Source of the DNA: Branchiostoma floridae
Lineage: Eukaryota > Chordata > Leptocardii > Amphioxiformes > Branchiostomatidae
Direction of reading: 5' to 3'
Assembly (NCBI RefSeq): GCF_000003815.2
Contig: NC_049993.1
Location: 6,116,183 to 6,180,182 of the forward strand
DNA length: 64,000 nucleotides
Part shown: piece by piece, positions 5,960 through 58,200 of the stretch
How positions within the stretch are numbered: position 1 is the first letter of the stretch
Layout: each line of letters begins with the position of its first letter
The notes under the pieces: model-generated
Seen by the model: only the letters and a program-made list of their open reading frames with translations
What the model was told of the DNA's origin: nothing
The model's database searches: none
Translations under genes and position numbers: made by a program

Positions 5960-6741
5960 GTGAAAACATTCCGCCGGCCACGGCACATGCCCCGAATTCT
6001 GCTTACCAACACCAGGTCGCTTGTAAACAAGCTTGATGAGTTTCAAGCGATCCTGTCCACTTCCAGTGTTGACATCGCAGTTGTGACTGAAACATGGTTT
6101 ACTCCACAGCTACCAGCCGAACTGACATCCATACAGGATTTTAACCTCTTTTCTAAATGCAGAAGTGACAAGCGAGGAGGGGGAGTGGCGGTGTACATTA
6201 AGGAGAACATTCCCTCGAAGCCTATGAACATTGTCGTCCCAACAGAACTTGAGTGTGTTTGGATGCACATCCGTCCCCACTGGCTCCCGAGATCTGTGTC
6301 ATCTATCGCTCTGTGCGCGGTATATCATCCACCCAACTCACCTCATGAAGAGGCATTACTGGATTTCTTGGCTACGTCGATTGATGACATTCGCAGACAT
6401 ACCCTGACGTCGGCGTGGTTGTCCTCGGCGACCTTAACCGCCTGGATGTTACCGGCCTGTGCTCGCAGCACTCACTGACACAACTCGTGAAGGTGCCGAC
6501 TCGTGACAATGCCATCCTCGACCAGATACTTGCGTCGGACTGCTTAGCCACTTGTTACCAAGAGCCAACAACAGTTCCCCCGATTGGCGACAGCGACCAC
6601 AACTGCGTTATCTGGGAGGGAAGTCCAACTTCTAATACCGGAAACGAGACACATAAGAAACAGGTACGACCCCTGCGTGAGTCAGACTTGCGGGCCTTTG
6701 GATGTTGGATTACCCATCCGATAAGTGTACTGTGCAGATAA
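5960..6741 (+). pseudogene. LINE endonuclease domain, frameshifted
   Basis: 5960-6478 reads as the start of an APE-type endonuclease: an LLTNTRSLVNKLDEF N-terminal strand, then VVTETWF and a region ending near 6395. The frame then moves to 6415-6741, where VVLGDLN and SDHNCVIW provide the later catalytic boxes. A second shift near 6705-6725 leads into the linker. The family cuts target DNA to prime reverse transcription; this copy cannot make an intact protein. Confidence 0.8.
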
Positions 6742-8682: not shown

Positions 8683-10277
8683 GAGGGTCTGCATGGAGGG
8701 TCCTGACAACGCTTTACGCTAAATTCGGGACGATCGACAACGCTTTACGTTAAATTCACGAAGGCCGGCAACGTTTTACGCTAAATTCAGAAAGGCTGGC
8801 AACGGTTTTCGCTATTTAAAGATGTTGCCCAAGTTTCCTGTCAAGCATAAAGATGAACCACATACTAGAGTCGGCCTGAATGTTCTGTCTTGCTGTTTCT
8901 GTTATTGACTCAAATAGAAATCAACGAGTAGATACATGTAGGTGTTGTTATAAACACATGTACACGTAAGCCTACACAGGCTTTGACTCATTCTTTGCAT
9001 TCTCAGGCATTCGGATGTAGGGATTGGGAGTGACCAAGTTAAGCCGGGCAAGAAAATCCGGATACATAAAGAACAAGTTACAAATGTTACCGAATTGGTG
9101 TTACCGATTTAAACATTCTGTAGAGTACGAAACTACTACAATGCAAACAAATAGTGAAGATAAACGTTTGACTGCAGTTTTACCTGTCAATGCCGAGAAC
9201 AGCCCGTGTCGATTTAGATGGTCTGGTATGTAGGAAGTAGGACTCGGAGCTGCCTTTATGCCTAAAAACTGGTTAGACCGGTGATTATGAATCACAAATG
9301 AACAGACCGAATCACGAATGAACAGACTGAAGGAGATAATAGCCTTTTGCATATGTAACTATAGTAGTCTGTCCGTAATTAGATGGAAATTTTCAACAAC
9401 TTAACGTATCTGGTTAGTACTCGTGGTGAACGTTTTCATGTCACACAGTGACGTTACACAGGCCACCAGAAACTTAAACCCGAAATGATAGGTATGTTTT
9501 GATTTATGATATTGAGAAAACTGTGGCTGCATTGACCACTCGATGCACAGTTCAGTGTGGGTGAGGCGTCGCAAGGGAAGTCCGGGAAATTTGTGAAATC
9601 CTTACCCCTGAAACGCCGCGTTCTGAGTTTTTGTAAGAAAATTTTGATTTGATGGATATTATATAAAGCTAAATCTAATGACATTTCTATCAGCAAAAAA
9701 GGTGTTTGAGGTTGACACGTCACATCCCCAACATATTTTCAGCATTTCGAGCGCCAAAGGCACGAGGCGGCGCAACGGGAGGACCATGGAAATTTTGAAA
9801 TCTTGAACCTCTAAGATGATATTTCCTGCATTTTGATAGGCAAATTTTGCTGCCAGACTAAGCTAGCTACCTTCAATAACATTCCCATTAACGGCAAAAG
9901 GTGAGGGCGAGGCCTCCGATACATATTTTGGCTTGTCGATGACCGAATGTGAAAGGATTTGCAAGGGAAATTTTGAAATCTTGATCATCTGAAACGCAAT
10001 TTCCCATGTTTTGAGGGGCTAAATTCACTGGTAGACTACCCTTCGACTTATGAATTTTGGGAGACCAGGCTACGATTTACGGGTAATTTTTAGGCTAGAT
10101 TACGCTTTACGTGAAATTTTTAGGCTAGATTACGCTTTACGTGAAATACACTGGCTACGCTTTACAGTCAATTTTCCATCCTCACTACGAATTACGTGAA
10201 ATAAAATAGCTTCCCTACGAATTACGCGAAACTAAAAGGCCTGCCTACGCCTTACGGAAAAGAGCATACAGACCCTC
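8683..10277. mobile_element. 1.6-kb non-autonomous DNA transposon with subterminal ACGCTTTACG repeats
   Basis: Ends are GAGGGTCTGCATG (left) and, inverted, GAGGGTCTGTATG (right). GTCCTA flanks both sides (8677-8682 and 10278-10283), a 6-bp target duplication. Joining the flanks restores the LINE coding frame. Near the left end a unit with ACGCTTTACGCTAAATTC repeats about four times; near the right end ACGCTTTACGTGAAAT-type units repeat about six times in the same orientation. The middle (about 9540-10040) has three degenerate copies of a block of roughly 190 bp. No transposase frame is seen. Superfamily not assigned. Confidence 0.85.
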
Positions 10278-10840
10278 GTCCTACACAGCTGGAGGTCGTC
10301 GAGTTTGCCCGCATTTTAGGTGTCATCCTCCAAAGCAACCTGAAGTGGTCTAAACAAGTCGAAACGATGGTTGGGAAGGGAAACAAAAGACTGTACATGT
10401 TAAGAACACTGTCCAAGTATGGCCTAACTACTGGTGACCTTGTACTTGTCTATATTGGTTTTGTGCGCCCGGTATTGGAATACGCATGCCAAGTGTGGCA
10501 TCCAGGATTGACTGTTGCTGAATGTAAGTCAATTGAAAGAGTGCAGAAGAGAGCTTGTAGGATAATCCTCGGACAGAACTATACCTGCTACAGCTCGGCA
10601 CTGACTGAACTCTCCCTCACATCACTGTCTCAGAGACGTCATGACCTATGCAGATCTTATGCTCGTTCACTGTATAGATCCCCGACCTACAGGGACTGGT
10701 TCCCTCCCTGTCGTAAGGAGATTACTGGCAGAAATACACGTTCAGCCAACAAACTGCAGGTCCCCAGAGCCAACACCTCTCGTTTAAGGAAAAGTCCAAT
10801 ATACTATATGGTCTCACTACTCAATGACGACATTGTATGA
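10278..10840 (+). pseudogene. LINE reverse transcriptase, C-terminal part
   Basis: After the inserted element the frame runs to a stop at 10838-10840. It shows LGVILQSNLKWSKQV, then YIGFVRPVLEYACQVWHPGL and IERVQKRACRIILG, typical of CR1/L2 reverse transcriptase tails. The 3' UTR follows to about 11040. Confidence 0.88.
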
Positions 10841-39156: not shown

Positions 39157-42100
39157 ATGTCTTGCTCTATGCTGTATATTCTAGACCTGAAGGGGAAGGT
39201 AAGTGGGGAAAACGGTGGTACTAAGTGAAGTAAACTGCTGAGATGTAAAATCTGATTTTCGCAACCACTTGCTTGTCAAAGAACGCGGCAACAACTGCTT
39301 TACGTTTTCTTTCTTAAAAATTACTAGTTAAAGCTAGTACTGCGTAATTCTTCTCTTTGTGCGTTAGGGCATGTAGTTGCCTTTAGGATTGTTGGTACAA
39401 ATCACTATATTAGTTTATTATCGCTCGTATAATGTATAGAAAATTTCAACAAAGGGGAGGGGCACTGCAAGATTTCAAACGTTTTTCTGCTTGATTTGTA
39501 CGTTATTATGTGCCAAAGAATCGAAATAAAAAATAAATGATATTTGTAACCGTTTGACTCCCTTAGCCGGCTTTACTCCTTGGCAAGCTTTGATACTACT
39601 GTAAGTGTTTGCGGTAGATTAATGTTCACAGTTTACGGGGCGACCACTTAACCGCGAACTTAAAACCACCGCGAACATTTTCTATTATGGTATTAGACTG
39701 CAGTCTATGGTGTTAACCCAAACTTAAAACCACCGCAAAAAGTCCTTTTTCCCACTACCGCGAAATTAAATCCTTGCGAACTTAAATGCATTTACAAATG
39801 TACAGTATCTTATGGCACCGTAGGATCTGCTTGGAGATTACACATCATGACTACGTCTCTTTTCCCCCAGGTGATGATTTCCCGTAATTACCGTGGGGAC
39901 ATCGAGCCGTCGGTGATCGATAAGTTCATGCCACTGCTGATGGAACGTGAGGAGGAGCTGCAGACGTCTCCCATCATCAGCACCGAGGAGGTCACCTTTG
40001 TGTACATCAAGTACAACAACCTGTACAGTATCCTTTCAGACTGCGCAAAATCACTTCATGGGTGTAGGTGCACTGGTGCTCCTAGCCTTAAAATTTAGGT
40101 ACACAACATAGCTAAGGTTACATTCGTGTACATCAAGTACAACAACCTCTATAGTATCCTTTCAAACTGCACCACAGTGCCAGGTGCAAAAATGTGAGAT
40201 CGCGTGGTGGCAGCGCATTGGGTTTAGACCCAAGAGGTCTCGAGTTTGAAACCTGCCATGTCACTGATGTTGTGCACTTGGGAAAGGGCCTCAGATAGTA
40301 CTCTCCAAGCAGAGGTTGGTGGGAAAAATCGTGACCTATTCCTATCATATTTTTTTTTTCGACTGGCCTTCCCTCTGTAATGGTATAGCTAAGATCACCT
40401 TTGCAGTGCTCACCTTTGTGTACATCAAGTACAACAACCTGTACAGTATCCTTTCAGACTGCGTAAAATTCCTTCATGGGAGTAGATGCACTGGTGCACC
40501 TAACCTAAAAATTTAGGTGCATAGAATTGATAGTAATAGAAAAAAAGTTGTAGGATTAAGTAGAATGCTGGTAAAACGTAATTACAAATTTAACTGCCTG
40601 TAATTATATAGCTAACTTCAAAATTTTAAACAATCAGTACAACAAACAAACTACAATATAGCTTTTTCTGATGCTTAATTTTCATGAATATTCTGCGTTC
40701 AAAAAGTTTGGGTCCACAAAGGTGCACATGCACCCAGTATTTCAAACCCTTCAGTAGGCTTGTGGTTGTTTTGACTATAAATTCATGAAAGTTATAACCA
40801 AGGGGACATAATTTTGCAGTATGGGATAAAGGTAGCCTGTGTTTACACAGTCTTTTGCTGGCTGACATTTACTACTGTAATTATAATGGATATCAGTAGT
40901 TTCAGTACTGTGTATATTACCAAACCAAACCAACCAATTACGTATCATGAAGACAAGAAGGTATGTGAGATGCAAGAGACCTTGTAAGCTGCTTTAGTTG
41001 TCTAGAGAATCAGTTTGTCTTAACTCTCTCTCAGTGGTTGCCACCACCAAGAAAAATGCCAATGTGGCACTGGTGTTCAGCTTTTTGTACAAAGTTGTAC
41101 AGGTGGGTTGTCTTATTGTTGATCTAAGTAAGAAAAGATATACTGCAATTGTTTTTATAGATTGAAGTTGAAAACATCAATTTGAAGTTGCCCCATTTTT
41201 AGAATATCTCACCCTGGTGCCTTGTTCTTTGTCCACAGATTTTCATGGAGTATTTCAAAGAGCTGGAAGAGGAGAGCATCCGAGACAACTTTGTCATCAT
41301 CTACGAGCTGTTGGATGAAGTTATGGACTTTGGCTATCCACAGACAACAGACAGCAAAATTCTGCAGGAGTGAGTAGTGGACTTGTTAACATTTTTACAG
41401 GATTACAGCTTTATACTATGGATAAAGAAGTAGGGATGAAGACACTGTATGTGCTATTTTAGATCATGAATAGATAGTGTTTATGGAGTTTCTACTTGTA
41501 TTGTTATTGATTATTATCCTGTCCATGTCAACTTCCATTTGTATTGTCTTTGTCAGTAGGGCTGGCATGTAATATCCACAGGCCAGTTGGGCAGCCTTTG
41601 CATGCTGCATAACCAAACCAATAGATAGATATAGATAAATACTAAGGATATGTGTCTAACTCTAAGCATGGTTTCATACTGATTTGTCCCACCGTGTAGG
41701 TATATCACACAGGAGGGCCACAAGCTGGAAACCCAGGTACGACCACCCATGGCTGTCACCAATGCCGTGTCCTGGAGGTCAGAGGGCATCAAGTATCGCA
41801 AGAACGAGGTCTTCCTGGACGTGATTGAGTCGGTCAACCTACTCGTATGTTGGGATTCTTTTTTTAATGCAAAATCACACTGTAGTGTAGAACACAACGT
41901 ATATAAATGTAGCCCTGCCTACCTCCACAAAAACTTAGAAATGTAAATCAAAATTGTTGAAATGATCAAAGTGTGACAGGCCTGCATCTAATAAATGTTG
42001 TTGGTTGAATTGCTTGATACATGTACTTTGATTGGCAGAAGAGTGCTCTAGTCACTTTGAATATCTACCAACTTGGTACTGTAGGTGGATTCAGCAGGTT

Positions 42101-44819
42101 TAGCATATAATGGATGAAATTGTACTTAATTCACTTGTTCTATTGTGTGGCATTTTGAATATTGAGCTGTTTTTAATCTCCCCAAACGAGGTGAGCTTAA
42201 ACGGTCACGTACTGCAGAGCGAGATCGTCGGGGCCATCAAGATGCGTGTATTCCTGACGGGCATGCCCGAGCTACGTCTGGGGCTCAACGACAAAGTCTT
42301 GTTCCAGAATACCGGAAGTAAGTCTTGTTTTTTTTTTTTACGCCAATCACTTACAGGTCAGCGTAAACGGAGTTGTCTTAAGGAGCGAAATAGTTGGCGG
42401 GATCAAGATGCGGATTTACCTGAGTGGGATGCCCGAGCTCCGCTTGGGACTGAATGACAAAGTTCTGTTTGAAATCACTGGCAGTAAGTAAAGTCTCTGC
42501 CTGGTGGGGTCATGTTCATGGATATCTGACTGTCATTCTGCTAATAAAAATTGCTGGGCTCCTTTGGATAACAAAGTCTTGTGGCTTCAAAATAAGAATT
42601 GTTCCTCTTACAAAAATGTGGTATTGCCGTTTCATTCCCGGGAGCATTGTACTGTAGATTGTGTTTTGTATCTCTTCCTGTTGGCATTAATGTACAAGAC
42701 TGGGTTTTCATCTGTTTTTCAAAGATGCTTGAGGTTAAAGTATCAGCTTGTCTTCTGCTACATGTACTGCCTCTCTTGCATCCTCATTGTGGTTGTGGTA
42801 GAGTGCTAACTTGTCTGTAACAAGTCTTCAGTCTGTGCCTGCATCCTTTGTTAGGGATATACTTTCTGATTGTATCACAAGAACATCAGGATACTCTGTT
42901 ATTTGGGCTGGCATTGGTGGGAATAGGAAGAAAAAGAAAGGCATTTTCAAGCCCTGTACAGGTTCAAGCACGTATTTCTGCCCCCCCCCCTCCCCACCTA
43001 CAGGAGGGAAGAGCAAGTCTGTGGAGCTGGAGGATGTGAAGTTCCATCAGTGCGTGCGGCTGTCCCGTTTTGAGAACGACCGCACCATCTCCTTCATCCC
43101 GCCGGATGGAGAGTTCGAGCTGATGTCATACAGACTCAACACACATGTACGAAAAATTGTCCCATTTTTATTTTCTGTTAGATTGGTTAATTGCTTCAAA
43201 TTGTTTCTCTGGTAAAATTGTTTCTCTCTTTGTTTCTGTTGTAGTAGTAGTGAATTGCTTCAAATAGTTTCTCTCTTTGTATCTATTGTGAAATTGTTTC
43301 TCAAACAGTAAAAGCTGTATTTTCCATCTTGTTCCTTACCGGTTATTTCTAGGTAAAGCCACTGATCTGGATTGAGTCTGTGATCGAGCGGCATTCCCAC
43401 TCCCGTGTGGAGTACATGATCAAGGCCAAGTCTCAGTTCAAGCGCCGATCCACTGCCAACAACGTGGAGATCATCATTCCCTGCCCGAGCGACGCCGACT
43501 CCCCCAAGTTCAAGACGACTGTAGGGAATGTGAAGTGGGTTCCGGAGAACAGTGCAATGGTTTGGTCCATCAAGTCATTCCCTGTAAGTAACTATTAAAG
43601 ATTAGTCTTAGAATCCATCTCAATGTGACCAGGTGTATTTTGTACCTATAAGCCTGTACTTAGCCCAATGGGGCATGAATTAAGGGTTAATGACCCGCCC
43701 CGAGGTGTATATGGTGTCATAACGCCTGGTCCTTTGCTATAACCACCGAATAAAACCACCGATGTGAGCGAAGCGAACGAGGTGGTTTTATGAGGTGGTT
43801 ATAGCAAAATACCAGGCTTTATGACACCATGTACACCGAGGAACAGGCCTTTATCAGACATTATCATATAGCCAGGGCGTCGCGGACCAATCAGAAGGCC
43901 CCGTTCCACGTTGGTTATGACGNNNNNNNNNNNNNNNNNNNNNNNNNNNNNNNNNNNNNNNNNNNNNNNNNNNNNNNNNNNNNNNNNNNNNNNNNNNNNN
44001 NNNNNNNNNNNNNNNNNNNNNNGCCTGTATTTTTCATGTCCAGAAATTAGTTTACCAAACTTGTGTACTGTTACCGCTCTTCCCAGGGAGGCAAGGAGTA
44101 CCTGATGCGGGCACATTTTAACCTGCCGAGTGTTGAGAGAGAGGAGACAGAGGGACGGCCGCCCATCGCTGTCAAGTTTGAGATTCCCTACTTCACCACC
44201 TCTGGGATCCAGGTGGGTGCTCTTGCCTTTGATGTCGGGAATCATGGGCAATGTTTTGTATAGTATTACTGGATGCTTCAACTTCTGCTTCAGCTTATAA
44301 GCTTAAATATTTTCAATGTGACCCAAGATTCTACCATAGAAAATGAGCAAGTTTCTTCCAAAGACAGAGATTGATTCCAGTATTTTGCAAATTTTGAAGT
44401 CATTTAGAATTATCAGTAAAATTGGCCAAACAGCTTTTAACCTTTATGATCCATTTTATCTGATAGGTACCATGGTTAATGTATGTGGTCATGTATGGAA
44501 GGTGATGATGAATTTCTCTCAATATATTTTCAGGTTCGCTACTTGAAAATCATAGAGAAGAGTGGCTACCAGGCACTACCATGGGTCAGGTACATCACAC
44601 AAAATGGAGGTGAGTCTCCCCTATACTTGTTTCAATTTGGTTGGGTTGCTTTGGCAGTCAAATACATTAAAAATACTCTTTAAAGGGTGGAAGTTAACGT
44701 GGGTTTAATGAAACTCTCATTTCATTATTCAGTCTTATTACTGTGACTAACATGTTGAGGTCCCCATGTAACATTATCCACTCATTCTGTCCACAGATTA
44801 TCAACTAAGAACCAGCTAG
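39157..44819 (+). CDS. AP1M1: AP-1 complex subunit mu-1 (clathrin adaptor medium chain)
   Basis: The medium chain of the AP-1 clathrin adaptor recognises YXX-hydrophobic sorting signals at the trans-Golgi network and endosomes. Exons: 39157-39198, 39871-40027, 41035-41102, 41239-41369, 41700-41844, then either 42191-42317 or 42357-42483, then 43004-43146, 43353-43583, 44087-44212, 44534-44609, 44797-44819. With one of the paired exons the frame is 1269 nt, 422 residues, against 423 in human. It starts [14 protein letters not shown] and ends DYQLRTS. An N-terminal longin-like domain (about 1-140) is followed by a mu-homology domain, with [15 protein letters not shown] entering its cargo-binding fold and [28 protein letters not shown]-type and [14 protein letters not shown] blocks later. 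The paired exons encode residues 182-224. The gap 43923-44022 falls in an intron. A polyadenylation signal lies at 45295. Confidence 0.97.
39573..39838. mobile_element. Nested MITEs in AP1M1 intron 1
   Basis: Outer pieces (CGGCTTTACTCC..TTTGATACTACT and TATCTTATG..AGGATCTGCTTGGAGAT) match the right half of the element at 59715-59874. They are split by an inner TACTGTAAATGCA-type element (about 39600-39806) with the usual ACCACCGCGAAC words. The inner element therefore arrived later. Confidence 0.65.
40011..40520 (+). repeat. Three tandem copies of the AP1M1 exon 2 end
   Basis: The last about 30 bases of exon 2 plus the donor and intron start recur near 40119-40165 and 40408-40470. Copies 1 and 3 continue into a fragment of a GGTGCACTGGTGCACC-type MITE end. 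The extra copies keep the GTATCC donor, and copy 3 has a possible acceptor TTTGCAG at about 40400-40406. Confidence 0.8.
40195..40310 (+). mobile_element. tRNA-derived SINE fragment
   Basis: TGGTGGCAGCGCATTGGG (A-box-like) and GGTCTCGAGTTTGAAACC (B-box-like, 40236-40253) are spaced as in a tRNA promoter, followed by TGATGTTGTGCACTTGGGAA, a common SINE body word. It lies inside the exon-end repeats. Confidence 0.6.
42191..42317 (+). other. AP1M1: AP1M1 alternative exon 6a
   Basis: 127 nt bounded by CGAG acceptor and GTAAGT donor. Encodes [20 protein letters not shown] and on to NTG. Same length and phase as the next exon, 39 bp away. Confidence 0.9.
42357..42483 (+). other. AP1M1: AP1M1 alternative exon 6b
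   Basis: 127 nt bounded by CTTACAG acceptor and GTAAGT donor. Encodes [20 protein letters not shown] and on to EITG. Differs from 6a at several surface positions but keeps [15 protein letters not shown]. Confidence 0.9.
43700..43842. mobile_element. Foldback element in AP1M1 intron
   Basis: GTGTATATGGTGTCATAACG at the left is mirrored by a TTTATGACACCATGTACACC stretch at the right. Inner GCTATAACCACC / GGTGGTTATAGC arms flank an ACCACCGATGTGAGCGAAG turn. The repeat probably extends toward the gap at 43923. Confidence 0.6.
43923..44022. other. Assembly gap (N)
   Basis: 100 unknown bases in the intron between AP1M1 exons 43353-43583 and 44087-44212. Confidence 1.
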
Positions 44820-46245: not shown

Positions 46246-49200
46246 ATGGTGAGTTTAGCGCAAATCGTGGGAGGGGGGCACATTTGTATGATATATTTTT
46301 GCCAGGCCAGGGAGGAGGGCGGAGCTGTGGGAGCTTTCGTGACGTCTTTCTTCGTTCTCTGCAATAAAACATTGTATTCTAACAGTTAATTTGGGTGCAA
46401 AACTACGAAAGCTTCACCCTCCTTTTTCAGCACTGGAAACCAGTGCTGAATATGGCTTCAGCACTGGAAACCGAGTGCTGAATGTTCGTCAGCACTGGAA
46501 AACCAGTGCTGACGCGCTCTCAGCACTGGAGACGCCGGCTTCAGCACTGGAAACCGAGTGCTGAATGTTCGTCAGCACTGGAAACCGAGTGCTGACGCTC
46601 TCAGCACTGGAAACGCCGGCTTCAGCACTGGAAACCGAGTGCTGACGAACATTCAGCATTGGAAACCGAGTGCTGAGAGAAGACCCTGAGAGAGCGGGAG
46701 ACTAGACTCTGACATACTAGTATACAGTAGTGCACTTCATAGTTGATTGCGATATGTATGTCAATGATAGAAATACTCTATTTAGTTATATAGAAAGTAG
46801 ATTCCCTCATTTTAGACACATGAGTAGCACTGACAAGTTTATATTTCTCATGCGTTTTGACAAACCGACCATAGCGAAACCCATACAGTCCTACATTTTC
46901 ACTATTACCAAGAAGCGAGAAGAAGCCGAACTTTTGTGTTAGACTAGATTTGTGATACTTTTATATGTATATATCTTGACTTGTTGTGACCCGTACTTAG
47001 CTCGGTTGGGCAAAACTGTACAATAAAGGTCTTCATTCATTCAGTATTATAAATTTGGAGTTACGACACGTCCTTTGCTCGACTCAAGGACGTTATATAA
47101 CGTCCTTGCTCGACTAAAACGTAAGATTGCTGGATTATAAACGTCACCTATCGTTACATTCTGCTCTATAACACCTCTATAACTCTATAACAGTTTTCAT
47201 TTGTCGATTACCTTCGGGGATAATGGAAAATACTCGCGATCGTCGTGACGCTTTCTTTACGTGGGCGGTAATAATAATAAAGTTGTTTGCAATCCCGTTT
47301 TAATGATATCCATTCCTTATACATTTCAATTACACAAAACAACACAAATTCAGGCTTTTTTGCATCTGTATCTATCTTACGTTATATAGCCGGTATTACC
47401 GCCGTTCGGCGTAACACACCAGCTAAAACTGCATAAACTTGAAAAATCATCTTTATTAGTATCGTATATAGTACCGCTTTCAGTACTTTGTATCTATACT
47501 CTATACATACACCAAGTTACACATTAAATTGAATAGCACAACCAAAAGTTTAACTTTATTTTTAATCAGTATACGTCAAGTACCGCTCTCAGCACTAGGA
47601 CACTCCAGTGCTACGTCAAGTACCGCTCTCAGCACTAGGACACTCCAGTGCTCGAAAGACTTCAGCACTGGTTTGAAGAACGTTCCAGTGCTGAAAAGAT
47701 GTCAGCACTCGTTTTCCTGTGCTGAAGATTTCTCAGCACTGGTGTTCCAGTGCTGAAGTGCCCCTGAGCACTGGAAAATCGAGTGCGGAAGGCGAAGCTT
47801 TTGTATATCAGCACTCGGTTCCAGTGCTGACGGCGGTTTCAGCACTGGGTAACCAGTGCTGAGTGACCTTTGACCTGACCCGTCGCCGCCCGGGCCGCGA
47901 GTTCAGCACTGGAGCCGAGTGCTGACGAACATTCAGCACTGGAAAACGTCTTTTCAGCACTGGAAAACGAGTGCTGACGTCTTTTCAGCACTGGAAAACG
48001 AGTGCTGAGGGAGCTTCAGCACTGGAGAAAGGCCGATCAGCACTGGAAAACGAGTGCTGAACATTCTTCAGCACTGGGCGCCGAGTGCTGAGGCCGATTC
48101 GACCATTGTTTTCAGCACTCGGTTCCAGTGCGGAAGGTGAAGCTTTCGTAGACTTGCAATTTGGGTCTCAAAAATGCTCCAACAGTCCAATAATTTTGCT
48201 TGTATAATGATTCACAATTAATTTAATTATATGAGGGTGCACCTGTGTACTGTAGTGTCTCTGTATAGCTGTGTGTTAGTTACTTACTAAGTTACTTGGC
48301 TTGGGTGGAAAACACTGAATATCCAAACTGCTGTGTCTTCAGAGACGTAGCCAGGCTCCAAGCCAGCTGGCTGCAGCCAAACGTAAGCCTGGGGAGGATG
48401 CTGATGAAGACTGGAGACCAAACAAGGTTGGTATCAGGCCGAGGGTAACTTGCACATTATAAAAAATTGTAAATAATAAGAGCTTGTGTAACTGTTATAT
48501 TTTTGTCTTATAAGTTATATGAATTATGAGCCAAAAAAGAATCCGTTGGTGCAGCAACTGCATTGAATCGATGAAAGGACTTCACAGTCACTTAAAATAA
48601 AAGTTCATGATTCTAGATGAGTTGACAATGAATGACTGTGAAGTTGCTAACGTAGACTGACTTACCCAGGAGGTTTTATCAAGATTTGTGTCATCCTATA
48701 ATACATAGAATGTCTGTGTGGCGTAACGGCTAGAGCGTTGGAATCAGAATCAGTAGGTCCCGAGTTCGATACTCACCATGCCCCTGCCCCCATGACAGTG
48801 GAGTGACGCCCACCGAGCCTCACGGCTAATCTGTCTGAAGGTGCCAAAAAACACCTACGGATTTGGTGCTGCCAGTGTGTCAACATCTGCACACTTGCCA
48901 CTAAGACCCGTGAATTTTTTTTTTTTTTTATTTTATTTTTTTTTAATAATAAATAGAAGCAGCTAGGTTTGCCAGAGCATGCTCGGTCAGCAGCTATCCT
49001 CTTTATTACATCCTTCCTGGTCATGTTGCCTGCTTGGAGATTCCTCTCGATGGTAGACTGAGTGTCTGTAGGTCATCTACCATGATCTCTAGATATAGAT
49101 AATAGATGTTTATAGTATAATAAAATTAACAGTTAGCAAGTTACAATGTATCAATAATTATATGACATGTCTATATCATCCTGGCATCTTCTTACTCAAC

Positions 49201-52200
49201 AGGTTGCTAAGAGGAACAAAGCCAAGTCTGATATCGATGATTCTCCATCCAGTCAGTTTATGTCGCCGTACCGACGACCACTGACCCCTATCACCAACCA
49301 GTCTCGTTTCCCAGACTCTTCATCGCATGTGAGTTCTCTTATGTGCATTATTTCAGCTCAGTCTGCCTGGCCTTGGTGCCATCCTATTTAGTTTACAGGA
49401 GCTCCTATACTTTCTCCCTCATACTATAAGTCATAGAATATTTCGTGAGGGACTGAGTATGGGAGCCCCTGTCAACTAAATGGGATGGCACCCAGGCTAA
49501 GAAAAGCTTGCAATCAATTATGGAAAATCGAATTTGTTCATTCATGTGATTGGAAACTTGAGTTTGACACACTCTGCCTTGTTCTTCAGTCTCTGATCAT
49601 TGAATTTCTCCCAACAGGAGGCCTTTATCAGATCAATCCTGTCCAAACCCTTCAAGATTCCTATCCCTAATTACAAAGGTTAGTGTGAAGGTTTTTACTA
49701 AGTCTTGTTAATTCAAAGTTTTGAAGTCAAGCATGTTTCAAGAGGTTACTACTGCAGCACTGCAAGGTTTTATGTGATATAACATTATAATTTTGTATTC
49801 TGAATCTGTCTTTCTCGCAAACTCTCTGCAAGTGACAAGGTCCAAGGGAAAAGCTGTACATAACAGATTTTCTGAGAAAATGTTGGTCTTAAGTCAGAAA
49901 AACTTGTACACTTTACTACAAACTTGTTTGAAGGAAGATCTTTTGGATGATGTATCATCACAGTATAATGTTGTCGTATTGCAATAGTGAAGACTTGTCT
50001 TTATGCGCTCAGGTCCCACATTAAAAGGATCACTAGGCATCCGCAGACAGGGAACTCGGCGGGCGCTTCATGACCCTGAAGAGGAGGGAGCTCTTGTTCT
50101 GTACCACCCTCCACAGCTGTCAGCTCAGGAGGCTCTGAAAGTAGACCTGTGAGTTGTCATGGCTTCTCATCTATTCACTGAATCAGTTGCATGGTAAGAA
50201 AAAAGCCATGGTTATCCACTATGTGGTGAATGATGCAGCAGTACTTTAGTCAGAGGTTGTTTTCAAAAGCTATGAGTATGACAATAAAAAATCAGATAAG
50301 AAAATGTGAGCTAAATTTTTTCAAAAAGACAATTGAACAATCTACAAATGTGTTACAAAAAAAGTTAATACCTAATGCTAAGTCTTCAACATCTTGATGA
50401 TAGCTTTTTGACAAGGCTGATGTTTTGTGAAACTTTGACTCTATAAACATGTATTTTGTATACTTGTACTGATACCGTTCTCTGCATTCTTGTATGGTTA
50501 TAGTTATGTATGTATGTATCTATGATGTTACTATACTTTCAATACTAATTATTCTTTCATTTTTTTATTTGTTTAGAGAAAAGCATCCTGTTCATGGTAA
50601 GTGATGTCCTTCCATTTTTGCTAATTTGAACATAGCTTGGCTTGTCTTTTCATAGCAAACTGGATTAATTCTTCTGATCCCATACCTGGTCTCATGACTC
50701 CAGGAAGACTAATGATGCAGTCTGAATTGTAATCACTAATGGAGATCTTTTGAATAAACAATAAACATGCAAACTGTTGTCTAAAATGTGCCACAGGTGT
50801 ATCTTATTAGATTGAATTATCAGTAGATAAGAATAACCATCCCATCTGCCCCCAGTTGTTGTAGACCCTGTCCTGTGCTGTGTGCTGCGGCCTCACCAGA
50901 GGGAGGGGGTGAAGTTCATGTGGGACTGTGTGACGGGAGAGAGGATCCCCGGCAGCCAGGGGTGCATCATGGCTGATGAAATGGTAAAAGAAAATGTTTA
51001 TTTGTACGTGAAATACCAATACGTCTACTTGGAGCAAAGATGGCATGTGGTTTCCTCGCATATTTGCACATTCTCGCATTGTAAGATCAACAATGGATAC
51101 TCCTGTAATGTAATCTGTGGTTTGAAAGGAGGTTTTTTTTATGGAATCACAAAGTTTAAATCACCTCTCCTTTAGGTCCTGGCTTTCCTACAACTTGAAA
51201 TGATAGAAATAGAATGTTTCTTGGCATTAACCTTTTTAAATGTGTAGGGATAGGCTATCTGACATTCTGTTCTTTTTTCTTCAGGGTTTAGGCAAGACTC
51301 TTCAATGTATCACTCTCCTCTGGACATTACTAGTGAGCATTCTGATTTATATTTGCAAATCTCTAACTTGCATACATGTATAATAAAGTCTGAATAATTA
51401 CTTAAAGACTTAAACACAGATTGCAAATTTCCATAAGGTTTTCTTTTGTTATCACTCAGTTAGATTAATCCCCTTGATTTCCTTGTGTGTTTCTAACATT
51501 TCCCTTTTATTTTCTTACAGAAACAAAGCCCTGATGGTAAGTACTGTTTACACTTAGCTGTTGATCTGCTTTATTTCAAATTATTTGACTTTCTGCGTCA
51601 GTTGAATATCATGCTGTGACATTTATGGTGATGCTGATATTCAAAATTTGTGTCTAAAACAGCCAAGCCAACAATAGACAAAGCCATAGTTGTGACACCA
51701 TCCAGTTTAGTCAAGGTAGGTTACCATGATTTATTTTCTATTATGGATTTACATTAAGATATGTGTGAGTTTTTAAGCTTTGGTGAAATTTTCTGTGGAC
51801 TGTAGTGTTTCTCTGGATAAAATGTGTGTCAAACTATAACATATGTCTGTATGCCACTTATTTGTTGTATTGTTTTGTCGATTTCTTTAATTAAGTTTTA
51901 AATTTCTTATCCCATCCATACTTCAGAATTGGTACAATGAGATCAACAAGTGGCTGGGCACCAGGGTCAATGCCCTCGCTATTGACTCTGGCTCCAAGGA
52001 CCAGATAGACAGGAATCTTGGTATGTGAAGATTTATTATAACATGAGTGTGGACTATATCAAGGTCTTGTTTTTGGTTTCAAAGTTTAACACATTAACAA
52101 CAGCCACATCATTTCACACTGTTGTAAAACTAGAATCAAATAAGATACAAATGGATTAGTTCCGCTGCAGTTCCGTATAAGTAGTTATGCTGTAGTACCA

Positions 52201-55200
52201 AAACAAGGCGCTAGGGGGCCAAAAATGTCAAGGTCAAGGCTTCAAGGTCTACCCATTTACCAAATATCAATCCAACCCATTCAGGTAGAGTTATGCTGTT
52301 CATCCACATACACACAATGCACACATACAAACACTACCAAAAACATAACCGTCTTGTAGAAGGTAACTAGAGTAAGAAGTCTCTGATGCAATTACTTCCT
52401 TCAAAAATTGATTGACTGATAACTGCTAGACTGGCATTGTGTAGTGTGCTGCCAACTAGAAAGATAACTGCAGCTGCAACCTGTTCATTGTAGTGATTGG
52501 GTAAGGACAGTGCACCTAGCTACTGTTTCCATTTTTACTACAGTACTACTACTATTACTGTCAGTCAGTATATGCAGACTATGACTCTACGCAACGGTAG
52601 TAAACGACAATAGATACTACAATATACAAATATCTGTCAGTAGTAGTTCAGTTGTACATTATCATTTGTAATCATTGCCATTTGATTTCCCTATTTACCA
52701 GTTGCAAAAATACCAAAAATAGATAAATTTAATGTATTTCTTTCCCTTTATAGACAGTTTCATGTCCCAGCAGGGCAGGCGTGTTTCCTCCCCTATCCTC
52801 ATCATCTCGTACGAGACATTCCGGCTCCACGCTGCTGTTCTACACAGGGGCCCGATCGGACTGGTTATATGTGACGAGGTACAGATAAGTTTTATGGTTT
52901 CCTCCAAACATAATACTGTAAATGCATTTAGGTGAGGATGGTGGGGATTTAATCTCGCCGCAGCGGAAAAGTGGAGTGTTGGCGGTGGTTTTGAATTCGC
53001 GGTAGAGCAATCCCGTAAACTTAGTTACAGTACTGTACTGTAGTCGCACATTGTATTATAAATATTCAAAGTGGTTTTAAGTTTGCAGTTCAGCGGCCAC
53101 CGCGAAAACCAGGAATATGAAACCACCGCGGAAGTTTCTGCATTTACAGTATATCAGCAGTGTTTTTTCATTAGTATTACATGAACTAGTAGGGAAATTG
53201 ACTGACTTTGCCGACAAATTCTATACCTTATCTCTTTCAATGATAACATTGTATTTAGTACAACAGCAGATTGAATGGAGAAGACAGAAATGTTAAATAT
53301 TGGTGGTTGTTAAGCTTACTATTCTTTTTCCACATTGAGGTGTAATCAGCATCTTTAGAACAAGCTGCAGTACTCCCTTCTATGACAGGAGGCACTATTA
53401 ACAGGTTGTTGATGTAGTGGTCAATAGACAGCAGTTTTGGAAAAGTTGTAAGAGGGGAGTATTCAGTATATGCTTATCAGGGCTCGAAATACCACCTGCA
53501 TATGCATGTTAGTGCAGGTAAAATTGGAGCTGTGGAGGTATTTATGGCGTCTACCTGCACCTAACCTGCACACCCAACTACATAAATGTCCTATGATGAA
53601 GGTGTATTGTGGATTGTTCTTAGCCTTATTGGCTGTTACCTGTAATGTATAAACGAGAAAAAAAAGTGGTTCCTGAACAATTTTAGTATGATCTATACTT
53701 CCTAAGTTCAAAGTGATGCAGGTAAGATTTGTCTGGTGCAGGTAATTTTCAATGTTACCTGCACCAGTGCAGGTATGCAGAAAAAAGTATTTCGAGCCCT
53801 GCTTATGAATGTTAGCTTTCTAAAGTAACCTCTGTTTTTTCCTGTTGCAGGGCCACCGGCTAAAGAACTGTGAGAACCTGACGTACCAGGCGCTGAGTGG
53901 GCTGAAGTGCAGGAGACGGGTGTTGCTATCGGGCACACCCATCCAGAACGATCTCCTGGAATACTTCAGTCTGGTGCACTTTGTCAACACTGGTATCCTG
54001 GGTAGGTGTAGCGGGGTTCGAAATGATTTTGTTTATTATTGTTATTATTATCACCATCTGATAAATGAAGTTTGTGCTTACCTAATAAATAACTCTTCAG
54101 ATAGAAGGAAAGATCTCGCACAAGTCATTAAGCGTTTTGCCTACTTTCTGTTGTTATTTCTATCTGTCATTATTTTGTACAATGTTTTATCTTCATGTAA
54201 ATAAATGAAGTGAAATCGAATCAAAATAATTGAAGTTTCATCTGATTGGTAACTAAATCATTTAAATGGATGATAATTTTTTTTCTTGCGCAGCCAAAAG
54301 GAATTACACACCATGTAGGCTAACATTTCAGACGGCTTTCCACTATCTCTCTCAGGTCAATAATGCATTCAACAACATTGGCGGCTGCCTTTTTCTTTGC
54401 TTCTTGATTACAATTTTACCTTGATATTCTTGAAACTCTGATGCACTTGACTTTTCAGGCACAGCACAAGAGTTTAAGAAGCGATTTGAGACGCCAATCT
54501 TACGCGGTCGAGATGCAAGCGCCTCGGATAAGGACCAGAAGAGGGGAGAAGAAAAACTCAAGGAGGTAATCTTATTCTACCAATGCAGCTAGTCAAGTGA
54601 TAGTAGTATCCAGAAGTAGTATCCAGTATGATACTACTGCTGGGGTCCCTGACATAGGGTTGGGCAGCAGTCAACTAGTCTTCACACTGCACATCTATGC
54701 AGATCTGTCTAGCGGGCTCACCCTCATTGGAAACCCCCCCCTGAAGTCGCTACTTACACGTTCCATCCAGGATATCCTTGGTCTGTGCTGCCAACATCTT
54801 TTACACAAACCTCTATTTTTGATCTCTGGTCTTCACTTAAATAATCACATGAATATGAAGAATGTTGTTGTTTTTGTTAACAGCTGTTGGACATTGTTGA
54901 CCGCTGCATCATCAGGAGAACGGCCTCCATCCTGTCCAAGTACCTGCCAGTTAAGAGTACGTACAACTAGACATTCTATGGATAACAAAGTTGATCTGTA
55001 CACAAGCTGTAAGTTCTTACATAGTTGATATTTTAGTGACAGTGTGTCACCTTCTTCAGGGCAATACTGCATGGCACTGTAGCTGTTCTACATGGCACTG
55101 TAGCTGTTCTACATGGCACTGTAGCTGTTCTACATGGCACTGTAGCTAGGTGGGGCTGCTGCAATATGCAGAATGTGATCCCAACCATGAATGAGATTAC

Positions 55201-58200
55201 ATTCCTGATCAATAGACATTCTGTGTTAACTGTGTCTATCAACATAGTACCTACAGTACTGCTTTGTTGGAAACAAATAATGAATAATGATGTCATTAGC
55301 AAATTGGATTCAGTAGTTATTTTACTTCTTAAACTAGACTGGAAACTTTTTGAGGTCAGTCAAGTCATGAAGGAATGTTGTACAAGTTAGTATTTTGCAT
55401 TTTAGCATTTGTGTTGAGATGCCCATGTTGTTACATGTATGTCACATGGACTTTCTTCTCCTCTGTAGTTGAGCAGGTGGTTTGTTGTCGACTGACACCC
55501 CTACAGACTGCTCTTTACAAGCACATGGTACAGTCTAAACTGGTGCAGGCTCAACTGGACAAGTCCAAGTCAGGGAAGGTGACGGGGTCCGCCTTCACTG
55601 CCATCACCCAGCTGAAGAAACTCTGCAATCGTGAGTGCAACCAGTCCTTCAGACTACAAGTTATTGCCTTTACAAGTGAAGTTATCGTCACCATTCTTGC
55701 TGTATTTCTAGGTTTACATGGTATCAGAATGACCCAAATAGTTGTGGATGTTAACTTAGTTATGTGCGAATGTGTGGGCTTGGCCCAAGAACACACTCAA
55801 TGATCTTATATTAATGTTGATTTGACTGCCCTAGCATAGTCCTCTCACACTGCAGTTTACAAGCAAGTTAACTCTGCAAAGCAAAATATTGAGCACACTG
55901 AGAAAACTAATCTATATCTACTGAGTGCTAGGATAGTAATGCTAAATCCATTTTCTTTTTATAGATCCTTCATTGATTTATGAGAAATGTCTGGAGGGTG
56001 ATGAAGGGTTAGATGGAGCTCTGGATCTGTTCCCAGAGAAGTATAGTCCCAAACACATCCAGCCAGAGCTGTCAGGTAATGGTTTCTTTATTGTACCTAC
56101 CTGTTAGTTAACTGGAAAAAAACAGACTGGAATGTGTAATGTGCAGCTCTACTACTGTTGTTAGAGTTGGACTAAATCAAGCTAAGAAGTGAGTAACTAT
56201 ATGTTTACTAAGATGATAGGATAAAAGGTTGGCAAATTCCCATTATAATGTTAGCACTAACTTTATGAATAATGCACCCTTGCCTTAGTAACACTACTAG
56301 TATGCTAAAATGTCATCACCCTGACCCCCAGGTAAGATGCTGGTGTTGGATTACATCCTGGCCATGACGAAGAGTAAAACCTCAGACAAGGTCGTCCTGG
56401 TCTCCAACTACACACAGACGCTGGACCTGTTTGAGAAGTTGTGCCGATCCAGAGGGTAAGTGATGACGTCTTTGAAAATACAGATATCAAAAGCTGTGTT
56501 GTTGGTCCAAGCTGATCAGTGAACTCTACATGCTGTCCCAAGTCCACTCCCACATGTAAGTTGTGTTTTGGAAAGTGTAGCCTGGAAACCCATACAGTCC
56601 TGGACTCCAGGTCTTCGGCTTCAGTAAGTCCTCCAAAGAAACTTTCACTGGATGCCCCTAAGGAAAGCCTGAAAGTTTACCTGGCTAAAGTCTGGCTTCC
56701 ATGTTATGGAAGCTGGGGGCATGTAGGGCATTGATAACACAAGTTGTATTTCTTTATGAACTTACTGAAGTGAGGCTTACATACATTATTGCCTCTGTCC
56801 ATTTGCAGCTACCTGTATGTGCGTCTGGATGGATCTATGACCATCAAGAAAAGGGCAAAGGTTGTGGAGAGGTTTAACAACCCCAGTGTGAGTACTTTTA
56901 CTGAACAGAACATTGTGAAAGTGATCTTGAACCAGTTTACCAGAACATAAAAATTTCAATAGATAGCTAAGCTTGTGACTTTTCTACTTGCAGGGACAGA
57001 GAAGACAGGTTTATTGTACCAAGGAAATTCCTCAAGCTCTTTTTGACGAGTACAAAGCATAGTGGACCCTGGCTTAGCAACCTGTCTTACAGACTGCAAC
57101 CCTTTCCAGTTGCTCATAACTAGAACTGTCATAGTTGAAGATATTAAAGAATTATTTTTAGCCTGGTTTAAAACTCCTAGTAAGAGATACACGTAAAAGT
57201 TTGTGAAATAAGTTGATTGAGAACCATGTTTTAAGCAGTTTTCATTTGCTGACAATTCTTTAAAGCCAATATCCTTATTATTCTCATTCTATAACAACCA
57301 AGCATTAAGCATTGGATTCAGGAGAGCACCTATTTTGTAGGAACTGATTTATATCAAATATTTCATTTATTGTTGTTTTTTCTTCATTTGCAGAGCCCTG
57401 AGTTCATCTTCATGTTGAGCAGTAAGGCAGGAGGCTGTGGGCTGAATCTGATTGGTGCTAACCGACTGGTGATGTTCGACCCTGACTGGAACCCAGCTAA
57501 TGATGAGCAGGCCATGGCACGGGTGTGGCGTGACGGCCAGAAGAAACAGTGTTATATCTACAGATTACTAGCAGTGAGTACAAACTGATGAACTGATAAG
57601 GAAAGTAACATGCTGTAGATTAAAGTTTGTGGCATGGTGAGATCTACAGTCTGTAATATCTTTGAGTTTGTCATTGAAACAATGGTAGCAGCACAATGGA
57701 AGACAGATTATATGTTTACAATCTACCTTTTGATGAGCTTTTATAATGAGAGGTCCTCAGTTGGAGTTTGCAAAGAATGCACACTTAATTGTAACAATTG
57801 ATACAGTCAAACCTGCAGAAGTGAGCGCCTCTGCTTAAGGTATAATCATCACCTAGTTACCACTTTTTGGTGGTCCCATACTAGTTAATTTTTTATACTG
57901 GCACAAGCATTAAGAATCCTGTCTATATGGTCCCCCGTCCACATCGACAAGATTTTATTGGTTCCCTCAGTCAGTCTTACTCTTAGTGGGCAGCGTTAAC
58001 CGGCACTGGTACTTTGTTTCCAGACTGGTACGATAGAGGAGAAGATATTCCAGCGGCAGGCGCACAAGAAGGCGCTGAGCAGCTGTGTGGTGGATCAGGA
58101 GGAAGACGTGGATCGCCACTTCTCATTGGACGAGCTGCGGGACCTCTTCCCGTTAAACGAGGACACCATCAGCGACACGCACGACAAGTGAGGATCTCTT

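Follow-up and report, generated by a model that had tools for sequence, protein, structure and literature searches.

A tandem pair of probably mutually exclusive exons in the AP-1 mu1 gene of the lancelet Branchiostoma floridae

Tandem exon pairs that are kept from being joined by steric constraint are already known. In alpha-tropomyosin and OGDH the distance between the donor and the branch point is below approximately 50 nt, which is the spacing that passages of PMC6692369 and PMC7969005 give as needed between a 5' splice site and a branch point. In OGDH, according to PMC7969005, the branch points that prevent the joining of exons 4a and 4b lie 25-41 nt from the donor. In PMC6692369, assembly on one substrate was lost when the 5' splice site lay 35 instead of 50 nt from the branch point, and the minimal distance estimated from structure is about 52 nt. 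Among human mutually exclusive clusters, parts of a survey list 57 (9%) with potential steric interference, and among frame-incompatible clusters they report joined reads in 83 (22%) (PMC5740500).

We describe here a pair of exons in the AP-1 mu1 gene (AP1M1) of the lancelet B. floridae that appears to fall into the same class. The window analyzed was a stretch of 64,000 nt (contig NC_049993.1, positions 6,116,183 to 6,180,182 of the forward strand). When exons are placed by their GT/AG junctions, AP1M1 is complete with either of two copies of exon 6, designated 6A and 6B, and encodes 422 amino acids in both cases. The original prediction had placed two 127-nt exons of equal phase 39 bp apart, each with GT/AG sites, and the full gene model verified both these exons (42191-42317 and 42357-42483) and the outer junctions at 41844 and 43004. 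The features of the gene are as follows.

39157..39198, + strand: exon 1, start codon and 42 nt of coding sequence (GT/AG gene model)
39871..40027, + strand: exon 2 (GT/AG gene model)
41035..41102, + strand: exon 3 (GT/AG gene model)
41239..41369, + strand: exon 4 (GT/AG gene model)
41700..41844, + strand: exon 5, ending in VNLL and holding D173 (mu1 D174 of the tyrosine pocket; gene model, pocket residue from a figure legend of PMC6770538)
42191..42317, + strand: exon 6A, 127 nt, 42 residues, acceptor CGAG, donor GTAAGT (gene model)
42318..42356, + strand: 39-nt gap between 6A and 6B, with the 6A donor GTAAGT, a T12 tract, the YTNAY candidates and the 6B acceptor
42357..42483, + strand: exon 6B, 127 nt, 42 residues, donor GTAAGT, matching the exon type of B. 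lanceolatum isoform X2
43004..43146, + strand: exon 7, with the codon of R224 (mu1 R225) split as A and GA at its 5' junction
43353..43583, + strand: exon 8 (GT/AG gene model)
44087..44212, + strand: exon 9 (GT/AG gene model)
44534..44609, + strand: exon 10 (GT/AG gene model)
44797..44819, + strand: exon 11, coding part and stop codon (GT/AG gene model)

By its domains and nearest relatives, the gene can be assigned to AP-1 mu1. Pfam recognized PF01217 (longin-like N domain) and PF00928 (mu-homology domain) in the A-form protein, with E-values of 6e-95 and 2e-9, and a search of the PDB with the B-form protein returned AP-1 mu-1 chains at E ~1e-244 and mu-2 at 1e-105. Protein identity was 97% with B. 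lanceolatum mu-1 and lay in the range 79-91% for 119 other matches (from the best 120 of 6555).

Several other features were observed in and around the gene. Intron 2 holds two repeats of the 3' end of exon 2 and its donor, located at 40410-40532 and 40115-40170 (96% and 89% over 56 nt). The copy at 40407-40445, after TTTGCAG and before GTATCC, makes a possible 39-nt in-frame mini-exon that encodes 13 residues and would duplicate part of the N domain. A downstream plus-strand gene (~50837-55800) contains SNF2-related helicase pieces and looks RAD54-like by eye; PF00176 matched at 53824-54201 (1.6e-14) and, below the curated cut-off, at 55354-55800 (2.5e-4). On the same strand, an endonuclease-type domain at 5960-6475 (PF03372, 6.5e-7) looks like a piece of a non-LTR retrotransposon, and an open frame without a Pfam match at 10205-10837 is reverse-transcriptase-like by eye only. 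Short alternating repeats cluster at ~46425-46680 around CAGCACTGGAAACCGAGTGCTGA, again as judged by eye.

Each of exons 6A and 6B has AG directly before it and GTAAGT directly after it; the two share identical phases (0 in, 1 out) and are separated by the sequence GTAAGTCTTGTTTTTTTTTTTTACGCCAATCACTTACAG (42318-42356). Conceptual splicing agrees with the earlier claim that including both exons or neither breaks the frame: the reading frame stops after 256 residues when 6A and 6B are joined, after 192 residues when both are skipped, and after 269 residues when the gap is retained between them. Transcripts with such stops are degraded under the general rule of nonsense-mediated decay, and since several further junctions follow these stops, degradation of transcripts with both exons or neither would be expected.

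A scan for YTNAY over the 100 nt before 6B, which reaches into 6A, found two branch-point candidates, both inside the gap. One, at 42353, is merely 4 nt from 6B, and the other, at 42340, is a candidate for a usable branch point, 22 nt away from the 6A donor and 17 nt away from 6B. Because 22 nt is less than the limit of about 50 nt, which derives from systems other than lancelet, 6A and 6B should not be joined, and steric exclusion may be expected to operate in vivo. The mutual exclusivity that had originally been proposed is favored by the frames, by a gap below the published limit, by the constraint on the pair described below, and by an annotated B. lanceolatum isoform carrying exon B. Together these make exclusive splicing likely as a prediction from sequence, and we hold with considerable confidence that 6A and 6B are a mutually exclusive pair of which both copies have been retained.

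The two copies are identical at 88 of 127 nucleotides and differ at 39 (71% identity when aligned as a 135-nt repeat). The differences fall at the three codon positions in the ratio 8/6/25 (chi-square p = 2e-4), dN is 0.125 with dS saturated, and 14 of the 16 four-fold sites in codons common to 6A and 6B differ. Nine of 42 residues are changed, which are, in the order 6A/6B, 184 L/V, 187 H/V, 190 Q/R, 196 A/G, 201 V/I, 202 F/Y, 204 T/S, 220 Q/E and 221 N/I; the example differences given earlier, including FQNTG/FEITG, agree with this list. Since change is mostly at third positions and four-fold sites with few residue changes, the duplication appears to be old and the protein constraint long-lasting. 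When neutral drift was simulated in sets of 4000 runs, at most nine residue changes and no stop were obtained in 1% of runs at 0.2 substitutions per site and in none at 0.3. With drift of 0.1 per site the pass rate was 67%, so a recent inactivation of one copy would be compatible with the data. The 293-nt stretch comprising 6A, the gap and 6B had one match, itself, when the 513-Mb genome (513,431,437 bases, 431 contigs) was searched at the DNA level, at which distant relatives would escape. The codon-position bias and the single match argue against a chance resemblance and against a collapsed assembly.

A second lancelet species bears on the age of the pair. The best protein match (P0001) was 'AP-1 complex subunit mu-1 isoform X2 [Branchiostoma lanceolatum]', in which 7 of 422 residues are changed relative to the B. 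floridae B form. Its exon 6 is of the B type and departs from B. floridae 6B only at positions 201 and 202 (2 of 42 residues), where it has V and F; V/I201 and F/Y202 are consequently no isoform markers. In trees of 50 distinct exon-6 segments, without mu1B, and of 105 distinct 42-residue segments, which included the Liparis tanakae fragment P0257 and were taken from the 200 of 269 matches readable without gaps (69 were dropped), the two B exons grouped apart from A with a support of 99 in both, and a group of A with B was found in neither. Exon 6B is thereby annotated as a used exon, and because the B exons of the two species group apart from A, the A/B split would predate the split of B. lanceolatum and B. 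floridae.

The exon-A motifs SLNGH and HVLQS occurred in 0 of the 269 proteins fetched, which were drawn, for full-length matches, from the best 120 of 6555 and, for fragment matches to 82-residue queries, from the best 120 of 903 and the best 120 of 964; likewise, no lancelet exon-A fragment was recognized in these last two sets. Names such as 'isoform X2' belong to computed models. The label X2 implies an X1, which could differ elsewhere than in exon 6, and, the database being clustered, the six-member cluster of P0001 may conceal an A-form protein. Among the matches listed, FQNTG was present in four fragments (P0222, P0230, P0234 and P0239). P0222 and P0239 were ruled out as lancelet exon A, as they carry SANGNV upstream and read unbroken through the junction of VNLL with VS. 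P0222 and P0234 were the rows nearest to A in the tree of 105 segments, and P0222 carries T204, Q220 and N221; part of the character of A is therefore found elsewhere.

How would the choice between the exons be made? Of the 11 acceptors in the gene, that of 6A alone has G at -3 (CGAG), a base that is seldom used at this position. This poor acceptor suggests that 6B is probably the default form, with 6A regulated or minor and needing help, although 6A is presumably used in transcripts. We propose that a tandem duplication of exon 6 arose, probably in the lancelet lineage and earlier than the separation of B. lanceolatum from B. floridae, and that both copies were kept as exclusive exons. U1 on the 6A donor and U2/U2AF on the 6B branch point and T-tract would have no room together within 39 nt; exon 5 would join 6A or 6B, and the chosen exon would then join exon 7. 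Leaked products with both exons or neither would be cleared through their shifted frame, early stop and degradation. Use of 6A may be helped by factors on the T12 tract that adjoins its donor. The outcome would be two 422-residue mu1 proteins in which nine residues of the mu-homology domain differ and the tyrosine-signal pocket is common to both. By eye, the 6A acceptor also resembles a donor (CGAG followed directly by GTGAGC, 42187-42196), making it a possible dual-use splice site.

The original prediction held that the exon encodes part of the signal-binding face of mu chains and that the two forms might differ in cargo preference. As listed in a figure legend of PMC6770538, mu1 contacts the tyrosine signal through D174, R201 and R410 and, through R225 and R393, the MHC-I tail at an acidic residue; a D174A mutant loses tyrosine-signal binding in the portion of PMC4018625 that describes it. 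Residue numbers in B. floridae equal the mu1 numbers minus one. R200 (mu1 R201) lies inside exon 6 and the codon of R224 (mu1 R225) is split at its 3' junction, which bears out the first part of that claim, but both residues are identical with 6A or 6B. D173, R392 and R409 are encoded by constant exons, and the pocket residues D173, R200 and R409 are present in both forms. Because the contact residues are identical or in constant exons, the known pocket is unchanged, and a swap of the pocket between isoforms is not supported.

A change beside the tyrosine pocket is possible. By analogy with the mu fold, a hairpin turn would be made by residues 184-187 and the strand that returns from it by 190-204, with 220-221 adjoining R224. 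Residues 190, 196, 202 and 204 should then face the side of R200 and residue 201 the core, and strand alternation by itself suggests that most of the nine differing residues are probably exposed. When P0001 was modelled together with 33 homologues, the mean pLDDT was 52.9, and approximately 22-27 over exon 6, and this poor prediction was set aside. Different cargo preference of the two forms is possible but unproven.

How unusual the two exons are was assessed against the 119 other full-length matches from the best 120 of 6555, an arthropod-rich set with many unnamed rows and with one row, labeled Sphagnum, that may be a contaminant. Departures from the consensus of these matches numbered 14 in lancelet exons 7-11 (median of the others 13) and none in residues 157-181 (median 0). 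In exon 6, A departs at 7 positions and B at 5, with a median of 3, values reached by 3 and 19 of the 119 rows, respectively. Four residues of B (V187, G196, I201 and I221) were unseen in the 119 listed rows (Fisher p 0.0024), as were three residues of B. lanceolatum B (p 0.025) and two of A (L184 and Q220; p 0.08), the reference being three unseen residues in the other 378 positions of the B. floridae protein. Pooling A and B, which are not independent, gave p 0.0016. When each of the 119 listed rows was treated as an isolated lineage, the maximum was two unseen exon-6 residues, in 6 rows. Among the wider set of 199 readable matches, V187, G196 and I201 were still unseen for B, with I221 present in P0257, and L184 only for A; Q220 was found in 5 of 124 readable fragments. 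B is clearly unusual in these comparisons and A much less so, and the case that they make for functional divergence is mild.

One alternative to exclusive splicing is that one of the copies, more probably 6A than 6B, is an old duplicate in decay, skipped in favor of the other and without a protein product. The acceptor of 6A, unique in the gene for its G at -3, would fit such decay, as would the finding of a B-type protein in B. lanceolatum and of no 6A-type protein among the 269 fetched, and a very recent inactivation would escape the drift test. Both copies, on the other hand, have an open frame and a GTAAGT donor, and the pair has been under long-term constraint. The 6A residues H187, Q190 and T204 occur in 1, 3 and 3 of the 119 listed matches, and these and Q220 look tolerated; the name 'isoform X2' also implies another isoform. 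Decay of one copy thus seems improbable to us. That two haplotypes or a misjoined paralogue were assembled side by side would be in keeping with a window that is draft in places, with an N gap at 43923-44022, but a nucleotide difference of 31% with a conserved protein is far above that expected of alleles, the pair has a single DNA match genome-wide, and exon B is an exon of the annotated B. lanceolatum protein. We reject this artefact, for which only the slightest chance is left.

A further possibility, which is compatible with exclusive splicing and is a rival only to two functions, is that both isoforms are made but are interchangeable, having been kept by chance or for control of the amount of mu1 through splicing. 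The two published contact residues that fall within the exon or on its boundary are the same in both copies. Of the nine differing sites, eight vary in at least 3 of the 119 listed rows and the ninth (201) in one, and A is within the range of the other rows, 6 of the 119 listed also having two unseen residues. B fits less well, with four unseen residues compared with a maximum of two in any of the 119 listed rows while its flanking exons are average, and V184, V187, G196 and I221 are retained in the B exons of both lancelets. Interchangeable isoforms are a serious contender, though we would bet against them.

In vertebrates, AP1M1 and AP1M2 (mu1A and mu1B) are two mu1 forms from one ancestral gene. 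The exon swap could provide two adaptors that do the job of this vertebrate pair, with 6A mu1A-like (N221) and 6B mu1B-like (FEITG), in polarized epithelia versus other tissues. Among the matches listed, vertebrate AP1M1 proteins have N at 221, as does 6A, and the fish fragment P0257, mu1B-like in our judgment, has FEITG, as does 6B; human AP1M2 has FELTG. Residue 221 in the 124 readable fragments was S in 54, N in 23, M in 22, A in 9, L in 7 and I in 1, with others in the remainder, and no group of B with P0257 was found in the tree of 105 distinct exon-6 segments. As FEITG is a match at one site, it is compatible with common descent as well as with convergence, of which the latter is the simpler reading. 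We regard an equivalence with mu1A and mu1B as unlikely, including its boldest form, in which the pair is older than the vertebrates and one copy passed to each of the two vertebrate paralogues.

The original prediction knew of no report of such a pair. In agreement with this, the open-licence literature searched yielded no account of the lancelet pair or of exclusive exons in any AP mu chain, AP1M1 included. AP1M1 is also absent from the main text of the human survey (PMC5740500). The pair may already be implicit in the NCBI lancelet annotation, given the two annotated B. lanceolatum isoforms. What is unexpected here is the gene, an AP mu chain, and AP-1 mu1, which acts in protein sorting, is highly conserved. 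If both forms are made, this single lancelet gene would be a natural setting in which to ask which residues of mu1 count beyond those of the tyrosine pocket, and whether splicing preceded gene duplication on the way to two chordate AP-1 complexes.

The lancelet pair shares tandem exons and a short spacing with alpha-tropomyosin and OGDH and departs from them in layout, since those genes have a distant branch point and a longer intron, whereas AP1M1 has a 39-nt gap with a near-acceptor candidate that is predicted from sequence. It also concerns another gene in another animal group. Exons 3 and Ab of U2AF1, as described in the abstract of PMC5224494, are likewise duplicated exons that give two isoforms of a conserved housekeeping gene, although U2AF1 is a different gene from lancelet AP1M1. 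In vertebrates there are two whole mu1 genes, whereas in the lancelet there would be one swapped exon, and to our knowledge cell-type choice of mu1 is otherwise known through gene duplication, as with mu1A and mu1B.
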